From Chryseobacterium gleum (GTDB lineage: Bacteria > Bacteroidota > Bacteroidia > UBA10329): 41,588 bases of DNA. A program made the translations under genes and the position numbers. The stretch lies in NCBI GenBank assembly GCA_945903645.1, contig CAMDOM010000028.1, positions 1-41,588 on the forward strand, written 5' to 3'. The stretch's first letter is position 1. Every line of letters begins with the position of its first letter. Below the pieces are notes generated by a model that was given only the letters and a program-made list of their open reading frames with translations, was not told the DNA's origin and did not search any database. Of this stretch, positions 737-8,194 are shown one piece after another.

Positions 737-816
737 GACAGATAGTTCTTTGCGATGTAGTAATCTCGAAAGTCATCAACCCAAACTTTCAACACATTTA
801 TGCGCAGCATTCGGGC

Positions 817-1302
817 ATGGTGTATAACCTGTGCCTCAACTATTTGCAAAATGCCCAAGATGCCGAAGAAGTAACACAGGATGTATTTCTAAAAGTGCAC
901 GCCAAGTTGGGTGGCTTCAAGGCCGAATCGGAACTAAAAACTTGGATTTATCGTATTGCCGTAAATCAATGTTTGGATTTTTTGAAAGCCAAGAAGCGCA
1001 CCAAACGATTCGTTTTTATTCTTTCTATTGGCAAAGAACTAGCAGAAGATGCTGCTCCATTTGCCACATTCAATCATCCGGGAGTGCAACTAGAGCATCG
1101 GGAAGAAACCGAGCGCATCTTCAAATGCATCAACCAACTGCCCGAACGGCAAAAAACGGCACTGCTGCTCAAAAGCATGGAACAACTTTCGCAAAAGGAG
1201 ATTGCCGAGGTAATGGCGCTTTCCGAAAAAGCAGTGGAATCATTGCTTTCGCGTGCCAAAGCCAATTTGAAAAATGCATTGCACACAAGCGAAGGATTAT
1301 AA
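817..1302 (+). CDS. ECF-type RNA polymerase sigma factor (start probably upstream, near 775)
   Basis: The protein directs RNA polymerase to a small regulon, here probably metal stress. Region 2 is visible (MVYNLCLNYLQNAQDAEEV, TQDVFLKVH, then SELKTWIYRIAVNQCLDFLK), as is the region 4 helix-turn-helix (INQLPERQKTALLL, then LSQKEIAEVMALSEKAVESL). It is 161 aa from the ATG at 817, but that ATG lies inside conserved region 2.1. The homology continues upstream in frame as NPNFQHIYAQHSG back to about 775, with no ATG, GTG or TTG between 712 and 817. An ATC at 775 would give a normal N-terminus of MNPNFQHIYAQHSG type. The gene leads a co-directional cluster with a small membrane protein and a periplasmic sensor, so it is probably held inactive by the membrane protein. 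Family assignment is firm; the regulon is inferred. Confidence 0.88.
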   Translation: MVYNLCLNYLQNAQDAEEVTQDVFLKVHAKLGGFKAESELKTWIYRIAVNQCLDFLKAKKRTKRFVFILSIGKELAEDAAPFATFNHPGVQLEHREETERIFKCINQLPERQKTALLLKSMEQLSQKEIAEVMALSEKAVESLLSRAKANLKNALHTSEGL

Positions 1303-1331
1303 CACAATAATCGTCTAACTCGTAGAGCACC

Positions 1332-1607
1332 ATGCCACACCCAAACGAAATAGAACTAGTGCAACACGTAAATCGGGTGGCGGTTCCACCTTTTCTTTTC
1401 ACGCGAATACAGGCACGAATAGAAGCGCAACTGCAGGAACAGCTTCCTATTAGCTGGGTATGGGTTTCGCTAAGCACCCTGCTCCTACTTGTTGTTGTAA
1501 ACACGCTCATTCTGCGCGATACCACACCGCTTCCTGAAGCATCGAACAGCAGCAGTTACCACATTTCGGAAGAAATGGGAATGCAGACATCCAATCAGCT
1601 TTACTGA
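1332..1607 (+). CDS. Small single-pass membrane protein, candidate CnrY-like anti-sigma factor
   Basis: This 91-aa protein has a polar N-terminal segment of about 40 residues, one transmembrane helix at roughly 41-61 (SWVWVSLSTLLLLVVVNTLIL), and a short polar tail of 30 residues. No known domain is recognised. The gene lies 29 bases after the sigma gene, and its TGA overlaps the ATG of the next gene by one base, so translation is probably coupled. A short cytoplasmic segment plus one helix, placed between an ECF sigma factor and a CpxP/ZraP-like sensor, is the layout of CnrY, the 95-aa membrane-bound anti-sigma factor of the CnrYXH nickel/cobalt system. The role is inferred from size, topology and position, not from sequence identity. 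Confidence 0.7.
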   Translation: MPHPNEIELVQHVNRVAVPPFLFTRIQARIEAQLQEQLPISWVWVSLSTLLLLVVVNTLILRDTTPLPEASNSSSYHISEEMGMQTSNQLY

Positions 1608-2080
1608 TGAAAAAGACACAATTATTGGCCATTTTGGTGGTCGTGTTGGTGCTACTAAATGCGGCTACACTTGGTTTTCTACTCTTAGGCAGACCGCATG
1701 GGCCACATCCGCCACACATGAAGAGCGAACACGGACCCAAAGCACGAATAGAAGAACGCCTTTCATTCACAGCAGAGCAGGAAAAGGCCTTTCAGGGTTT
1801 GATTGAAGCGCATAGGTCGCAGATTCGGGCAAAGGATGAGGAAATGATGGCCGCCCGAAACATGCTCTACGCACAGTTGTCGGATGGCGATACAGCCCAT
1901 ACGGATTCCCTTTTGGCAGCAATCGGCCGTATTCAGCAAGAAGTGGAACAGGTTCATTTCGCGCATTTCGAACAGATTCGTGGCTTGTGCACATCAGAAC
2001 AATTGCCCGCTTACCACGAACTGACCAAGGAATTGGCTACGTACTTTGGTCACCCAAAAGGTCCAAAGCACAAGCATTGA
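1607..2080 (+). CDS. Membrane-anchored periplasmic metal sensor, CpxP/ZraP/CnrX-like
   Basis: The 157-aa protein has an N-terminal anchor helix at about residues 5-27. A His/Pro-rich linker follows (H31, H34, H37, H42), then an all-helical domain typical of the Spy/CpxP/ZraP heavy-metal-resistance superfamily. The LSFTAEQEKAFQGLIEAH segment is the LTxxQ-like first helix. Further possible metal ligands are H69, H117, H120 and the C-terminal HPKGPKHKH tail. A membrane-tethered ZraP-like domain of about 150 aa next to an ECF sigma gene is the CnrX arrangement, in which metal binding releases the anti-sigma factor. A chaperone role like CpxP/Spy is the alternative. Its stop codon overlaps the TTG start of the next gene. 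Confidence 0.72.
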   Translation: MKKTQLLAILVVVLVLLNAATLGFLLLGRPHGPHPPHMKSEHGPKARIEERLSFTAEQEKAFQGLIEAHRSQIRAKDEEMMAARNMLYAQLSDGDTAHTDSLLAAIGRIQQEVEQVHFAHFEQIRGLCTSEQLPAYHELTKELATYFGHPKGPKHKH

Positions 2081-2748
2081 AAAGGTTCGTCCTTAGTAGC
2101 TTTCTTCTATTCGTTTGCGGAACGCTGTCGGCACAAATCCTTCGGTTTCAGCCTTCGTTTCATCAACCCCCATTGGTGTTAGATAGCACCTATGTTACCG
2201 CCCAAGGCACTCCAGTGGCTGTTTCCGTGCTGCGATTCTACGTCTCCCATGTGCAGCTTTTGAACGGAAATGCAGTAGTTTGGCAAGAACCCGATAGCTA
2301 TCATCTGGTAGATATGGCCGATTCGGCTTCGTTACGCATAGCCCTACCTTCCAACGTCACCGCCAATAGGCTTTCATTTCTTTTGGGAACAGATAGTCTT
2401 GCGAATGTTTCGGGTGCCATGGGTGGCGCTCTCGACCCCAGCAAAGGCATGTATTGGGCGTGGAATAGTGGTTACATTAACTTCAAGTTGGAAGGAACGA
2501 GCCCAGTCTGCACTTCTCGGAACAACGCATTTCAATTTCATTTGGGTGGATACTCCTATCCGAACGCCACAGTGCAGCAAGTCAGCTTAAAATTATCGGA
2601 TGCTTCTGTTACGGTCGTGGTAGATGTCGCTCAATTGTTGGCAGCCGTAGACCTGAAAGTACTTTCCAAGGTCATGTCTCCCTGTGCGGAAGCTGTTGCC
2701 TTATCCAAGCAAGCTGCCACCATTTTCCGTGTGAAAGATGAAGAGTAG
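2077..2748 (+). CDS. MbnP-like periplasmic copper-binding protein
   Basis: The protein resembles the MbnP family, periplasmic copper-binding proteins in which a Trp is oxidised to kynurenine by the di-heme enzyme MbnH. Visible features are a signal peptide ending GTLSA-Q (cleavage about residue 19), VLRFYVSHVQLL, a SYHLVDM motif, FLLGTDSLANVSGAMGGALDP, the aromatic MYWAWNSGYINFKLEG block with W127 and W129, and FQFHLGGYS. TTG at 2077 was chosen because it directly precedes a signal peptide and its first codon overlaps the TGA of the sensor gene. An ATG at 1987 would add about 30 residues that overlap the upstream gene and bury the signal peptide. The product is 223 aa. The next gene, which overlaps by 11 bases, is the expected MbnH-type partner and strongly supports the call. 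Confidence 0.82.
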   Translation: MKRFVLSSFLLFVCGTLSAQILRFQPSFHQPPLVLDSTYVTAQGTPVAVSVLRFYVSHVQLLNGNAVVWQEPDSYHLVDMADSASLRIALPSNVTANRLSFLLGTDSLANVSGAMGGALDPSKGMYWAWNSGYINFKLEGTSPVCTSRNNAFQFHLGGYSYPNATVQQVSLKLSDASVTVVVDVAQLLAAVDLKVLSKVMSPCAEAVALSKQAATIFRVKDEE

Positions 2749-3754
2749 AGCCGCTATGCTGCTGGTTTTAGCTGCTGCGTTGCTCTCTGCCACGCAAAGC
2801 GGTCTGAGCGAAATAGAACTGGAATACCCCGAATATTGGCCAAAGCCGAGCTACGATTTTGAAAAAAGTCCGTTAAGCAAAGAAGGTGTTGCCTTGGGTA
2901 GAATGCTGTTCTACGACCCAATTCTCTCGGTCGATAGCACCATTTCGTGCAGCAATTGCCATTTGGTGTATACTGCATTCACGCATGTGGATCACCAGCT
3001 CAGTCATGGCATTCGCGACAGCATAGGAACACGCAACTCGCCTGCATTATTGAATTTGGCATGGAGCAAACACTTTATGTGGGATGGTGCGGTAAACCAT
3101 TTGGACATGCAGGCTTTAGCTCCTATAACCCATCCGGCCGAGATGGGAGAAACCCTGCCAAACGTACTTGCCAAACTCCAACGTTCGTCCAGCTATCCAC
3201 AGATGTTCCACACTGCTTTTGGTGATTCCATCATCACAGGGCATCATTTACTCAAAGCCTTGGCGCAGTTTCAACTGACCTTGGTTTCTTCCAATTCAAA
3301 ATACGATAAGTTCAAAGCGGGCACAGCAGAATTTACCGAACAGGAGCAACTTGGCTATGCGCTATTTAGAAGCAAATGCGCCTCATGCCATACCGAACCT
3401 TTATTTACCAATGGAGAATTTGCCAATAGCGGTCTACCAATGGATACCACATTGAATGACTTGGGTAGAATGCATATCACCAAGAACACATCAGATTCGT
3501 TACGCTTTAAAGTGCCCACGTTGCGCAATATTGAATTCTCGTACCCCTACATGCACGATGGACGATTTAATACCATCCGACAAGTGTTAAACCACTACGA
3601 TGCAGGCGTGGTGCACTCCAAAACCTTGGCCATCGAACTCGAAAATGGCACACCACTCTCAAGCAAAGAGAAAGCAGATTTGACTGCTTTTCTGCTCACC
3701 TTGACAGACAAGGACTTTCTTTTCAACCCAGATTTCGCATATCCAAAAAAATAA
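2738..3754 (+). CDS. Di-heme cytochrome c peroxidase, MbnH/MauG type
   Basis: This 338-aa exported protein carries two CxxCH haem-attachment motifs, CSNCH at 71-75 and CASCH at 214-218, in the bacterial di-haem peroxidase (CcpA/MauG) fold. Other family landmarks are ALGRMLFYDPILS, IGTRNSPALLN, FMWDGA, and RFKVPTLRNIEF followed by YPYMHDGRF. A hydrophobic N-terminal segment (residues 4-18) should act as a signal for periplasmic export. It starts inside the 3' end of the MbnP-like gene, so the two are translationally coupled. In MbnP/MbnH pairs the di-haem enzyme makes kynurenine in the partner, and the same reaction is inferred here. A plain peroxide-detoxifying cytochrome c peroxidase remains possible on sequence alone. 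Confidence 0.88.
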   Translation: MKSRAAMLLVLAAALLSATQSGLSEIELEYPEYWPKPSYDFEKSPLSKEGVALGRMLFYDPILSVDSTISCSNCHLVYTAFTHVDHQLSHGIRDSIGTRNSPALLNLAWSKHFMWDGAVNHLDMQALAPITHPAEMGETLPNVLAKLQRSSSYPQMFHTAFGDSIITGHHLLKALAQFQLTLVSSNSKYDKFKAGTAEFTEQEQLGYALFRSKCASCHTEPLFTNGEFANSGLPMDTTLNDLGRMHITKNTSDSLRFKVPTLRNIEFSYPYMHDGRFNTIRQVLNHYDAGVVHSKTLAIELENGTPLSSKEKADLTAFLLTLTDKDFLFNPDFAYPKK

Positions 3755-3833
3755 TATCAAACCTAACGAAGGATGCGCGGCATCGTGTCGTCTAAAGAAA
3801 ACAATTATCAAACTAGCCAATCCAACTGCCTTC

Positions 3834-5201
3834 ATGAAAAAAGTAATCCTCATTGCTGTACTGGCCATGTTCGGACAAGCACAGGCGCAAAGTCCAGCCA
3901 TCACCTCGTGGCTACAAAACACAACTACGTATGGTAGTTATTATACAGGTGGTAACTACACGGCTATTCCTATGACGGTGCTTGCCAACTGCCAAGAGGT
4001 TAGTTATTCTAACAATTGGGTGTATGTGAAAACAAGAGGTATTCCTGCATATCCAACCGGAATTTTTAGCGGAGATGGGAATCCAAATGTTGCTGGCGAT
4101 CAGAATGCGATTTACAAATTCCCTCTAAACCCTTCGGAAAACACTGGAAATCCGACCGCTACAACCGGAGGAAATATTGGTGTTTTCATCAATGGAGTCT
4201 CCTTGTTTGACTACCGAGATGGGGTGGCCTATAATGCCAACGCTACGAATGGTGTCTGCGGTGGCCCGCCACCAAACGCTATGTGCCCAGGCGGACCCAG
4301 TACAACACAAGCTTGGAATAGGGATGCAATTCCAGCTGAAAAGTTGGGTTTCGATTGTTCAAAAGGCCATCCGGCTGGAACAAATTATCATCATCACCAA
4401 AATCCAAGTGCTTTCAAATACGATAGCGAAACCTCTTTAACATATTCTGATATCTGCGATTTGTACGACTCTGATGGATTATACACCATCATCCAAACCG
4501 AACACTCTCCGTTAATTGGATTTGCTTATGATGGATTCCCCATTTATGGCGCTTACGGTTATGCCAACACGGATGGAACTGGTGGGATAACAAGAATTAA
4601 ATCCAGCTATCAGTTGAGTAGCAGCACTACAAGAGTTAATGGACCCAATGTTAATCAGGTAATTGGGACACAGACTTTCTTCAACGGCTATTTCCGAGAA
4701 GATTACTTGTACACCGCAAATGCTGGGCAAGATTATTTAGATGAACACAACGGACGGTTTTGTGTAACTCCAGAATATCCAAATGGAATCTATTGCTACT
4801 TCGCCACGGTAAATGATGATAATTCTTCTGCGTACCCATATGTGGTTGGCCCAACCTTTTATGGCAACAAAACCGCAGCAAAAGTAACGAGTATCAGTGA
4901 AGCAGTAACCGTTTACACGCCATCTCTAACAGGGATAACTCAGACCAACGAGGATAAACTAAACGTTACTATTTTTCCTAATCCATCGGCAGATTTTATT
5001 GGGGTGCAAGTAAACGGATTGGTGAAGCAAAACATTCCTGTAAGTATTTATGACGCAACTGGAAAACTGGTTTCCGAAGGAACAATTTTAGCCGGTACTA
5101 CCATCTGGTATTTAGATACAAAAACCCTATATGATGGAACTTATATCGTTAAGGTAGGAACCCAAGGAGCCCCCAAGCTAGTGGTGTTGGCAAGGAATTA
5201 A
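3834..5201 (+). CDS. Secreted YHYH-domain protein with T9SS type A sorting domain
   Basis: The protein is 455 aa. A signal peptide (MKKVILIAVLAMFGQAQAQ) is followed by a YHYH domain covering most of the chain: YVKTRGIPAYPTGIF early, GVFINGVSLFDYRDG, the name-giving His cluster as NYHHHQNP (canonical YHYH), then IGFAYDGFPIYGAYGY and GRFCVTPEYPNGIYCYFAT. The last 75 or so residues are a T9SS type A sorting domain (VTIFPNPSADFIGVQVNG, then GTYIVKVG), predicting export by PorU/PorV-type machinery to the cell surface. It follows the di-haem enzyme after 79 bases with no clear promoter, so it may belong to the same transcript. The biochemical role of YHYH domains is not established; the His cluster suggests metal binding. 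Confidence 0.85.
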   Translation: MKKVILIAVLAMFGQAQAQSPAITSWLQNTTTYGSYYTGGNYTAIPMTVLANCQEVSYSNNWVYVKTRGIPAYPTGIFSGDGNPNVAGDQNAIYKFPLNPSENTGNPTATTGGNIGVFINGVSLFDYRDGVAYNANATNGVCGGPPPNAMCPGGPSTTQAWNRDAIPAEKLGFDCSKGHPAGTNYHHHQNPSAFKYDSETSLTYSDICDLYDSDGLYTIIQTEHSPLIGFAYDGFPIYGAYGYANTDGTGGITRIKSSYQLSSSTTRVNGPNVNQVIGTQTFFNGYFREDYLYTANAGQDYLDEHNGRFCVTPEYPNGIYCYFATVNDDNSSAYPYVVGPTFYGNKTAAKVTSISEAVTVYTPSLTGITQTNEDKLNVTIFPNPSADFIGVQVNGLVKQNIPVSIYDATGKLVSEGTILAGTTIWYLDTKTLYDGTYIVKVGTQGAPKLVVLARN

Positions 5202-5228: not shown

Positions 5229-5984
5229 CTACCGATACTTCTTTCGAATAGGCGCTAAGAACCCAATGCCCACATTAAAATTGAGCAGATAGTAGCTAAA
5301 CAACCGCGCTTCGGCTTGGGCGCGCAGGTCGGTGGCTTGGTCGGGTTTGCCCAATTCTCCATCAAACAATTGAATGTAAGGCCCAATGCCTGTGGGCACT
5401 ATTCCCAATTGAACGCCCGAGCGCAATACCAAAAAATCGAAAAATACACGCTGCCGGCCATAGGTTAACGAAAGCATGGGAGTAATCACGCGCTCTTCGT
5501 GCCCCATAGCCATGGATTTCTGCTTGTCGTACGGTTGAATGCGGGTATCCAACACCATCACATCAAACTTCACGTAGCCACCAATAGGTGCAATTCCACC
5601 CTTTGAAGGGTTGGTAAACACCTTGTAGTTGATGCCATAGCCATAGCCCCGAATTTGTGCATGGTCATAGCCTGCATCAATACCTGGAATAAGCAATCGG
5701 GTAAATTCTAGTGTGCTCCAATTGTATTCCATTCCAGTAAAAATCAAATCGAACGTTACGCCAATAGACCCATTGCGTGCCACCATATAATCCATATCAA
5801 TGGTGCTGCGAATGTTGACAGCAAAACTGCTCAACCCCTTTTCCATAAAGTGATTGGGATGAAACAAAGCATTGAAAAAACTAGCCTCACCAGTAACCAA
5901 CAAGCGCTTGCCCATATAGCCAGGCGCTTGGGCATAGGACCATTGGCCTACCAGCATCAATGCTATGACAAGCAGATTTCTCAT
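5229..5984 (-). CDS. Outer-membrane beta-barrel-like protein of unknown function
   Basis: This 251-aa protein has a signal peptide (MRNLLVIALMLVGQWSYAQ). Alternating hydrophobic/polar segments follow with many Gly and aromatic residues (YGYGINYKVF, YVKFDVMVL, LSLTYGRQRVFFDFLVLRSGVQLGI, LNFNVGIGFLAPIRKKY), as in small outer-membrane barrels. ATG at 5984 was preferred because it forms an ATGA overlap with the stop of the upstream protease gene and begins directly with the signal peptide. A longer start at 6017 adds 11 polar residues overlapping the protease. The two genes are clearly co-transcribed. The family is not recognised beyond the general barrel look. Confidence 0.65.
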   Translation of the reverse strand: MRNLLVIALMLVGQWSYAQAPGYMGKRLLVTGEASFFNALFHPNHFMEKGLSSFAVNIRSTIDMDYMVARNGSIGVTFDLIFTGMEYNWSTLEFTRLLIPGIDAGYDHAQIRGYGYGINYKVFTNPSKGGIAPIGGYVKFDVMVLDTRIQPYDKQKSMAMGHEERVITPMLSLTYGRQRVFFDFLVLRSGVQLGIVPTGIGPYIQLFDGELGKPDQATDLRAQAEARLFSYYLLNFNVGIGFLAPIRKKYR

Positions 5985-8194
5985 CGCTTTTTTCGGGGTC
6001 GTGTTTTCATTTGCCACATGCTATCATAAACATTGCTGTTAATGAAATCGGGCGAGTCTTTCAACCTAAAATTGCTGTAGGCAATCATGCTCGGTTCGCC
6101 AGTGCTTAGGTTGAAAGTGAGGCAATAGTAATAGGTGTCATAATTGGGCCGAGCCATGTAGTATATAGCCAGTGGAATGGCGGGCGGCACTAGTATATAT
6201 AGCAAATGCAATGGGGTAAACTGCTTGTTTTCGCGGTAATTGATAACGCCAGTCCACGAAAAATTCTCGGTGCTATAATCCTTAATAATAGCAGCAATTC
6301 GCTCGCGGTCTAAACTCACCATATCCACATCCATATGGAGCAGGCGCTTGTCTACCCATTCATTTAAGAAAGCAATGTCATTAAACGTTTTCACGCTATT
6401 GGAATCGAGCATGGTGGCTTCCAAGATTATTGTTTCGAGCGAGAGCAGCTTTGCGCTCTTTTCTAATTTGGAAAACAACTCCAACTTGGCTGATTCCGCA
6501 TCCAAAAAGTTGTGCTGCTGCTGCTTGCGCATATCCAATTTGGTATACGCTGGCGATATCATCACCACCTTATCAATCCCCAACTTAATGCCCGAATTAC
6601 GCCATTCTCGTTTCTCTTCACGGTTCTTTTTATCTTGCTCAAAAACTGATTCAGTCGTTTTATTCCCCATCCATTTTTCGCGTTCCCATTGATCGAATTG
6701 GTTGCTGAAGGTGGTATCGTTAAACAATTCCACAAAGGCATAGCGCAGCATAGAATAGCGTGGTTTTTCCATTTGTCTAAGGCGCAAACGGTCGTACCTG
6801 CTCATTTGCTCCAGTTGAATTGTATCCAAGTGAGCCGCTTGGAGTTCGGGGGCTGTGCGGCTAAACATGCCGGGCATGTAGTGATCAAGCATCAGTTGTT
6901 TCAGCAGGTCGTCCGCCATAGCAATAAGGTCAGCATCGGTAGGATTTTTAAGCCGTAAGCGCCAAATATGACCCAAAGCCAACACACATAATTCGTCCGC
7001 TTGCAGTTGATAAAACAGATGGTACAACTGCTGCGATTCGCCTTCTATGGCGGTATATCCGGGATGCACATAACCCAATTTGCCTGCCATCTTAAACTTA
7101 GCAAGTGTATAAAGCGAACGAGCCACTTGCTGATGAAGAAAAGGATTGTTGGGATGTTTGCGCAGCAGCAAATAGGCGTTGTAAATAGCCATTATGGGCT
7201 GGTCGGTCATTTGATAAAGGTGTGTAAGCTCAAACCTCGCTGTTTCGCGTAGTAGCAAAAAGTCCTTTTCTGAAAGCAAGAAATCCTTGCCTTTAGACCC
7301 TCCCGATTTTAGCATCAATGCATTTATAATGGCTTGCCGTTCGCTTGGGCTGGGGTGCGTGGCGTCATCAACATTCTTTTCGTCCACAGGCTCGGGGGTC
7401 TTCACTTGGTCGAGAAAAAAGCTTTTGTCAATCTTAAAATCTTGATAGTTGAAAAAGGTTTGATCAAACTTCACATCATCAAACGGAAGGTGGGCATAAC
7501 GCATCACATCAAACACTTTGGGGATGGATTGGGTGGAATACCCCGAACGCAAAAACCGGTCTAACCCTTCGCTGTCTGCGGCTTTTTCCAATTCCTTGGA
7601 ATAGCGACTTCGGGCCAAAATGCGCTCGTCAAAAGAGGAACGCCCATGCACTCCTCGGCCTTCCTTCATGTCTAAGTTTTCTACATACGCATTGATGATA
7701 TGATGCCGCTGAAAATGCACCAATTCGTGGCTTAGGATGTAGGCCAACTGGGCTTCGTTTTCCAACTGCGCCAGCAAACCAAGACTCACCAGAATAACTC
7801 CATCATCGGTCGTAAAAGCGTTGACCACAGACGAACGCAACGCGTACACCCGAACACTGTCGCGCAACTCAGGTTCATCCTTCAGCACAATATCCAGCAC
7901 TTTAGACAAATAGACAGACACAGGGTCATTGAAAAGTACGCGCCCGCTGGTGAGCACTTGGTTCATTACAAAGTTGCTTTCCAGCAAGAAATTGTCTTTG
8001 TCGCGGGTGCGTTGCTTGCCATCGCGTTCACGGTTCAGCTTCTTTTGTGCCGTTTTATACTTCTCGGTAGATAGCTGACGAAACTCCTCAGGAATGGGAT
8101 TCTGCGCTTGTAGCGGCTGGTAATTGGTCAAGTTCTGCGCCAGCAAGCCAAACGGCAGCAGGAAAAACAACAGAAGAGCGTACCACTTGACCAC
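5981..8194 (-). CDS. M48-family metalloprotease with long C-terminal region
   Basis: The protein is 737 aa. The N-terminus is a signal peptide (LLLFFLLPFGLLAQ). The M48 zinc site is visible as HELVH at residues 156-160, with the third ligand in ELEKAADSEG (E203, followed by D207). DGVILVSLGLLAQLENEAQLAYIL precedes the site, as in BepA/YfgC and related periplasmic peptidases. Beyond about residue 300 comes a long region not recognised as a known domain, including a hydrophobic stretch near residue 670 (LLYILVPPAIPLAIYYM). It could process or assemble outer-membrane proteins, which fits its translational coupling to the barrel-like gene, but that is inference. A TATCTTTG -7 element lies 17 bases upstream. 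Confidence 0.8.
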   Translation of the reverse strand: MVKWYALLLFFLLPFGLLAQNLTNYQPLQAQNPIPEEFRQLSTEKYKTAQKKLNRERDGKQRTRDKDNFLLESNFVMNQVLTSGRVLFNDPVSVYLSKVLDIVLKDEPELRDSVRVYALRSSVVNAFTTDDGVILVSLGLLAQLENEAQLAYILSHELVHFQRHHIINAYVENLDMKEGRGVHGRSSFDERILARSRYSKELEKAADSEGLDRFLRSGYSTQSIPKVFDVMRYAHLPFDDVKFDQTFFNYQDFKIDKSFFLDQVKTPEPVDEKNVDDATHPSPSERQAIINALMLKSGGSKGKDFLLSEKDFLLLRETARFELTHLYQMTDQPIMAIYNAYLLLRKHPNNPFLHQQVARSLYTLAKFKMAGKLGYVHPGYTAIEGESQQLYHLFYQLQADELCVLALGHIWRLRLKNPTDADLIAMADDLLKQLMLDHYMPGMFSRTAPELQAAHLDTIQLEQMSRYDRLRLRQMEKPRYSMLRYAFVELFNDTTFSNQFDQWEREKWMGNKTTESVFEQDKKNREEKREWRNSGIKLGIDKVVMISPAYTKLDMRKQQQHNFLDAESAKLELFSKLEKSAKLLSLETIILEATMLDSNSVKTFNDIAFLNEWVDKRLLHMDVDMVSLDRERIAAIIKDYSTENFSWTGVINYRENKQFTPLHLLYILVPPAIPLAIYYMARPNYDTYYYCLTFNLSTGEPSMIAYSNFRLKDSPDFINSNVYDSMWQMKTRPRKKR

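Follow-up and report, generated by a model that had tools for sequence, protein, structure and literature searches.

Several described systems come close to the locus reported here. One is CnrYXH of Cupriavidus metallidurans (plasmid pMOL28, NC_007972), where an extracytoplasmic function (ECF) sigma factor, a bitopic protein and a membrane-anchored sensor are encoded in one operon controlling a resistance–nodulation–division (RND) efflux pump; the metal ligands of the sensor, CnrX, are His42, His46, Glu63 and His119. Another is the methanotroph pair MbnP/MbnH, in which the di-haem enzyme MbnH forms kynurenine in MbnP, which binds copper. MauG, of the same di-haem superfamily, matures methylamine dehydrogenase. 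Here we describe a six-gene operon in which a sigma factor–membrane protein–sensor triad precedes an MbnP/MbnH pair. It lies at positions 775–5201 (+ strand) of a 41,588-nucleotide stretch of Chryseobacterium gleum DNA (assembly GCA_945903645.1, contig CAMDOM010000028.1), hereafter the window. Dozens of Bacteroidota share this arrangement of genes, which makes it probable that the operon controls copper in the cell envelope in a way not described before.

Control of MbnP/MbnH by an ECF sigma factor is not without precedent, but the known mechanism differs. In Methylosinus, according to the sections of the published account drawn on here (PMC3621798), adjacent MbnP and MbnH genes lie near an ECF sigma factor and a membrane regulator, MbnI/MbnR (FecI/FecR type), for which signalling through a TonB-dependent receptor has been proposed; the window operon differs in having a CnrX-fold sensor, a YHYH partner and no methanobactin genes. 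The same sections describe MopE/SACCP and CorA/CorB of methanotrophs, which also combine a di-haem enzyme with a partner protein, and report that a tryptophan-derived kynurenine takes part in the copper site of MopE; these partners, however, are not markedly similar to MbnP, and no ECF/sensor triad is reported there (PMC3621798). An earlier reading of the window, made from its sequence alone (the sequence-only reading), took the combination of genes to be undescribed. In keeping with this, no description of the operon was found in the open-access literature, with most subscription journals—apparently including those of the main MbnP/MbnH papers—outside the scope of the search.

All six genes form a single run on one strand, most of them translationally coupled: (i) an ECF sigma factor of ~175 amino acids (aa; 775–1302), (ii) a 91-aa protein with a single transmembrane (TM) segment, probably an anti-sigma factor (1332–1607), (iii) a membrane-anchored periplasmic sensor predicted to have the CnrX fold (1607–2080), (iv) an MbnP copper-binding protein with a TTG start (2077–2748), (v) an MbnH/MauG-type di-haem enzyme (2738–3754), and (vi) a YHYH-domain protein (3834–5201). 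A gap of 29 nt separates the first two genes, followed by overlaps of 1 nt (TGATG), 4 nt (TTGA) and 11 nt, and by a gap of 79 nt before the last. The next long open reading frame (ORF; 5229–6017) reads on the opposite strand, so the run is taken to end at 5201. ORFs, profiles and junctions bear out the layout given by the sequence-only reading, with the middle genes overlapping or coupled.

The operon is real and conserved. We mapped 145 non-redundant loci from whole-genome searches and one MbnH-based scan of 84,980 species genomes; these were found through matches to MbnP, MbnH or the sensor, and the counts are not frequencies in nature. Forty-four of the 145 carry all six genes, with the sensor directly before MbnP, which answers the question, raised by the sequence-only reading, of whether relatives share the order. 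Tight junctions prevail, with no more than 5 nt between neighbours in 75 of the 78 pairs of 91-aa and sensor genes, in 54 of 61 sensor/MbnP pairs and in 115 of 122 MbnP/MbnH pairs. The carriers are metagenome-assembled genomes of Flavobacteriales, Chitinophagales, Saprospiraceae, Sphingobacteriales, Taibaiella, Kapaibacterium and Ignavibacteria. Chance adjacency of the six genes was considered and rejected, given the same order and similar overlaps in 44 non-redundant loci. A scan of 395 Bacteroidia genomes with the sensor profile alone, which gives a count less biased by position, found matches in 91 genomes. Among the 51 strong matches retrieved (at least about 100 bits), the sigma factor and 91-aa genes lie directly upstream of the sensor in 45, a strict triad; MbnP follows in the same downstream run in 35 (directly adjacent in 29), and MbnP or YHYH in 42. 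The MbnP-linked proportion may be inflated, because the profile derives from loci of that kind. Genomes of several megabases that have one or a few MbnP genes each would by chance almost never have one of these beside the sensor.

The genes also co-evolve in two blocks. When pairwise distance matrices were compared over 59 loci (500 permutations), the sigma factor, 91-aa protein and sensor showed distance correlations of 0.73–0.80 with one another, and MbnP and MbnH one of 0.82; correlations between the triad and MbnP/MbnH were 0.19–0.33. Partial correlations within each block exceed all 500 permutations (91-aa protein/sigma factor: 0.36–0.40), and YHYH tracks MbnP/MbnH weakly. We rejected the explanation that a few divergent sigma factor types create the pattern, as the blocks persist after removal of nine outlying loci (triad 0.59–0.64, between blocks up to 0.44). 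Such a pattern would be expected where a regulatory triad and an enzyme–substrate pair share an operon, and does not prove that the proteins touch.

The first gene encodes an ECF sigma factor by its domain content, having Sigma70 regions 2 and 4 only (Sigma70_r2 E 8e-17, r4_2 E 2e-17; TIGR02937 114 bits against a cutoff of 42.9). Its 27% identity to CnrH across 172 aa is not specific. The third protein matches PF13801 Metal_resist (34.7 bits, cutoff 29.2) and PF07813 LTXXQ (28.6, cutoff 24.3). A search of its profile against PDB sequences gave nothing significant (best E 0.08, an STV protein; Spy 0.1), which made a fold comparison necessary. The AlphaFold model is confident and helical (predicted local distance difference test score 86), with a TM helix at residues 3–27 followed by four helices. 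With this model Foldseek returned CnrX or NccX at every one of ranks 1–15 (probability 1.00, E modest at 0.008–0.1), and VIA-align placed CnrX first (Z 11.6; 106 residues aligned; root-mean-square deviation 2.8 Å; 13% identity). Modelling, as the sequence-only reading had proposed, thus places CnrX/NccX, with their N-terminal TM helix and four-helix fold, above the other solved structures. The same reading had spoken of a surface sensor; the protein is instead periplasmic and anchored in the membrane.

Conservation among 86 relatives singles out His69, His120 and Phe121 (92% each), Cys128 (97%), Gln132 (99%) and Glu114 (81%). Of 53 loci that have MbnP, MbnH and YHYH, 30 encode His117; where MbnP and MbnH occur without YHYH, 10 of 12 loci do. 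Helix positions, as distinct from coordinates, suggest that His69 faces His117/His120 across helices 2 and 3, at the location of the CnrX site.

The 91-aa protein has one hydrophobic TM segment (residues ~43–61), and its charge distribution suggests a cytoplasmic N-terminus. It carries an N-terminal, presumably cytoplasmic motif, L..I..V..PPFL.TRI.ARI, which its family (81 relatives, median 93 aa) keeps as L..I..V..PPFL.TRI..RI. The periplasmic tail of the family mostly ends in N-x-L-Y plus 0–2 further residues; Tyr is among the last three residues in 68 of the 81. The sensor, or a protease, may dock at this tail. No Pfam model matched the protein or its family, and a profile search for solved structures gave nothing meaningful. 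The layout is that of CnrY, and so is the size, about 91–95 aa in the two systems: a short cytoplasmic segment, one membrane crossing, a short periplasmic tail, and a gene beside those of the sigma factor and sensor. Anti-sigma classes share almost no sequence (~3% between RseA and CnrY), and in Bacteroidetes a class I anti-sigma domain lies beside only 6% of ECF sigma factors (PMC7406223); for these two reasons the 91-aa proteins could plausibly form a separate anti-sigma family. From its position, topology and co-evolution, the window protein is probably an anti-sigma factor, which would bind and inhibit the sigma factor.

The sequence-only reading called the next two proteins MbnP-like and MbnH/MauG-type, and both assignments are supported. 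MbnP matches PF20243 (E 4e-42; 144.6 bits, cutoff 27); its start is placed at TTG 2077, in preference to a longer ORF from 1987, because of the TTGA overlap with the sensor gene. Its profile matched no PDB sequence up to E 10, and the relationship was resolved by fold instead: the sole scoring structure for the model is 7L6G, MbnP of Methylosinus trichosporium (E ~1e-6, Z 16.1, 200 residues). In a family alignment of 121 relatives, with residues not mapped on 7L6G, Trp127, Trp129 and His155 are invariant and His76 is 81% conserved. MbnH is a CCP_MauG protein (E 3e-53) with CxxCH motifs at residues 71–75 and 214–218; these and His286-Tyr287 are essentially invariant among relatives. It matches MauG (E 2.5e-33), but lies closer to 6E1C, its best solved match (E 1e-51), an entry named 'Di-heme enzyme' that we take to be a methanotroph-type MbnH. 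Tyr287, in place of the peroxidase Met ligand, aligns with a Tyr of 6E1C. A second, unlinked cluster in the same genome (G000:C19 30000-45000, L023) holds an MbnH-MbnP-MbnH tandem (L023:9686-12658) and another di-haem enzyme (2281-3351, minus strand), with no sigma factor triad among the ORFs examined.

The sixth protein has a PF14240 YHYH domain (E 3e-54), a signal peptide and a type IX secretion system (T9SS) type A sorting tail; His179, His186, His188 and His224 are invariant, and a sequence search for solved relatives returned none. On pMOL28, a 123-bp gene beside cnrYXH (L131:22905-23027) is also annotated 'YHYH domain-containing protein', probably by a coincidence of names with PF14240.

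We favour, with moderate confidence, the reading that the operon encodes a CnrYXH-like switch that spans the envelope, responds to periplasmic copper and drives an MbnP/MbnH copper-binding system. The N-terminal part of the 91-aa protein would keep the sigma factor inactive at the inner membrane. The sensor would bind metal, most likely copper, between helices 2 and 3 (His69, His120, often His117, perhaps Cys128), and, once metal-bound, would engage the tail of the 91-aa protein in the periplasm differently, so that the sigma factor is released and transcribes its own operon. MbnH would then oxidize Trp127 or Trp129 of MbnP to kynurenine, completing the copper site, and the YHYH protein would be exported through the T9SS and bind metal at the surface. 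A bolder version, quite possible but short of probable, is that (i) the 91-aa proteins constitute a class of bitopic anti-sigma factors not described before, (ii) a copper-specific sensor of the CnrX fold, which has a His/His/Cys site of its own, reads their N-x-L-Y tail, and (iii) 91-aa protein and sensor jointly control a regulon for periplasmic copper throughout the Bacteroidota (MbnP/MbnH, YHYH, T9SS multicopper oxidase, SCO1), separate from the copper regulators known so far. The operon would tie periplasmic copper sensing in Bacteroidota to a role of MbnP/MbnH outside methanotrophs, and supplies a candidate regulator for that pair, a candidate anti-sigma family and a defined set of conserved positions as targets for mutagenesis. 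Should copper be the signal, the CnrX fold would serve a second metal system, whose site differs.

Several results weigh against this reading. The 91-aa family has no detectable homology to CnrY (hhalign probability 0.7%, E 0.086). The hhalign match of the sensor to CnrX (reference sequence from pMOL28) is weak (E 0.002, probability 13%); it pairs CnrX His119 with His120, the only clear equivalent among the CnrX ligands. Met123, required for CnrX signalling (PMC7689651), aligns with Ile124 (Ile/Leu across the family), and no conserved His that could match His42/His46 was found in the helix 1 region of the sensor family. Structurally, unrelated helical proteins reach a VIA-align Z of ~9.5 against the sensor model, so that the margin of CnrX over them is suggestive but not large for helical bundles, in which a Z below 13 can reflect a common arrangement. 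MbnP falls below the cutoff of the NCBI equivalog TIGR04052 (36 of 140 bits) and MbnH below that of the hypothetical equivalog TIGR04039 (218 of 363 bits), so both are regarded as divergent members. The DNA preceding the sigma factor gene, searched for k-mers and dyads in 45 regions, yielded no convincing ECF promoter motif, and in 9 of the 51 strong sensor loci neither MbnP nor YHYH lies downstream. Separately, scans for sigma-70 promoters and terminators stayed at background level.

These results qualify the CnrHYX-like module put forward by the sequence-only reading. The CnrX-type sensor fold and the co-evolution of the triad as a unit support it; gene order (Y-X-H in CnrYXH, sigma factor–anti-sigma–sensor here) and the undetectable CnrY homology do not. 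Since the sensor lacks Met123 and the His42/His46 pair, Ni/Co sensing through the CnrX site is unlikely, and we treat the protein as a separate branch of the CnrX fold and do not file it as CnrX.

Variant loci, in which MbnP/MbnH are missing or joined by others, bear on the signal. At six of them (L091, L093, L102, L105, L108, L128) the triad stands before YHYH and SCO1/SenC; at L097 and L099 the run that contains it also encodes a redoxin-like protein and a CueO-like multicopper oxidase secreted by the T9SS. Oxidases of this type adjoin MbnP/MbnH at L054 and L061 too. By this association the signal metal is most likely copper. As to the direction of the response, we lean slightly towards induction by copper excess. 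A variant of the copper switch with the opposite direction, a real if somewhat doubtful possibility, makes the triad an acquisition switch responding to copper starvation, with MbnP scavenging scarce copper like CorA, MopE and methanotroph MbnP. It is favoured by the downregulation of CorA and its partner under copper and by the presence of MbnP/MbnH in methanobactin operons (PMC3621798), as well as by the SCO1/SenC and CarbopepD_reg/plug (TonB-receptor-like) proteins of variant operons; yet metal binding activates in CnrYXH (PMC7689651), and the CueO-like oxidases point to detoxification.

The same sigma factor/anti-sigma/sensor logic might instead serve another signal, such as Ni, Co, Zn or a general stress of the envelope. 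The third protein would then act as a chaperone of the Spy/CpxP kind, titrating the 91-aa protein. The sensor does belong to the wide Metal_resist/LTXXQ superfamily, Spy, ZraP and STM VirG-like structures also appear in its structural match lists, and the nine strong loci lacking MbnP and YHYH would suit such a role. We nonetheless consider a non-copper signal unlikely: CnrX and NccX head the Foldseek ranking, the sensor family conserves two His and one Cys, and copper genes dominate the swapped-in partners. A few triads, at L092, L107 and L127, have neighbours without an evident connection to copper. L092 (G006, same genus) has two methylmalonyl-CoA mutase subunits 599 bp on from its triad, which is without MbnP/MbnH; L107 and L127 share a five-gene run after theirs (small ORF, ATP-grasp, decarboxylase, urea transporter/M23 protein, further ORF).

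That the 91-aa protein is a membrane anchor or accessory of the sensor, with the sigma factor regulated otherwise, would fit its lack of homology to any known anti-sigma domain, and is improbable in view of its fixed position between sigma factor and sensor, its CnrY-like length and topology, its conserved cytoplasmic segment and its partial correlation with the sigma factor. Least probable is a redox or peroxide switch with Cys128 as redox centre, MbnH as peroxidase and metal binding secondary: Cys128 is highly conserved and the MbnH superfamily includes peroxidases, but Cys128 is the single conserved Cys and is accompanied by two conserved His, MbnH has the Tyr of 6E1C, and MbnP accompanies MbnH and co-evolves tightly with it.

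A last point concerns the start of the sigma factor gene, which has no ATG, GTG or TTG at the expected position, with ATC at 775 instead. The first canonical ATG is at 817, and starting there would remove 14 residues of region 2. The gene probably starts at ATC 775, and a non-canonical AUC/AUU start in the clade of the window gene is possible. Sigma factor orthologues elsewhere carry ATG, GTG or TTG at that position; an Ile codon is also found there in L021 (ATC), L092 (ATT) and L169 (ATC, right after an in-frame stop).

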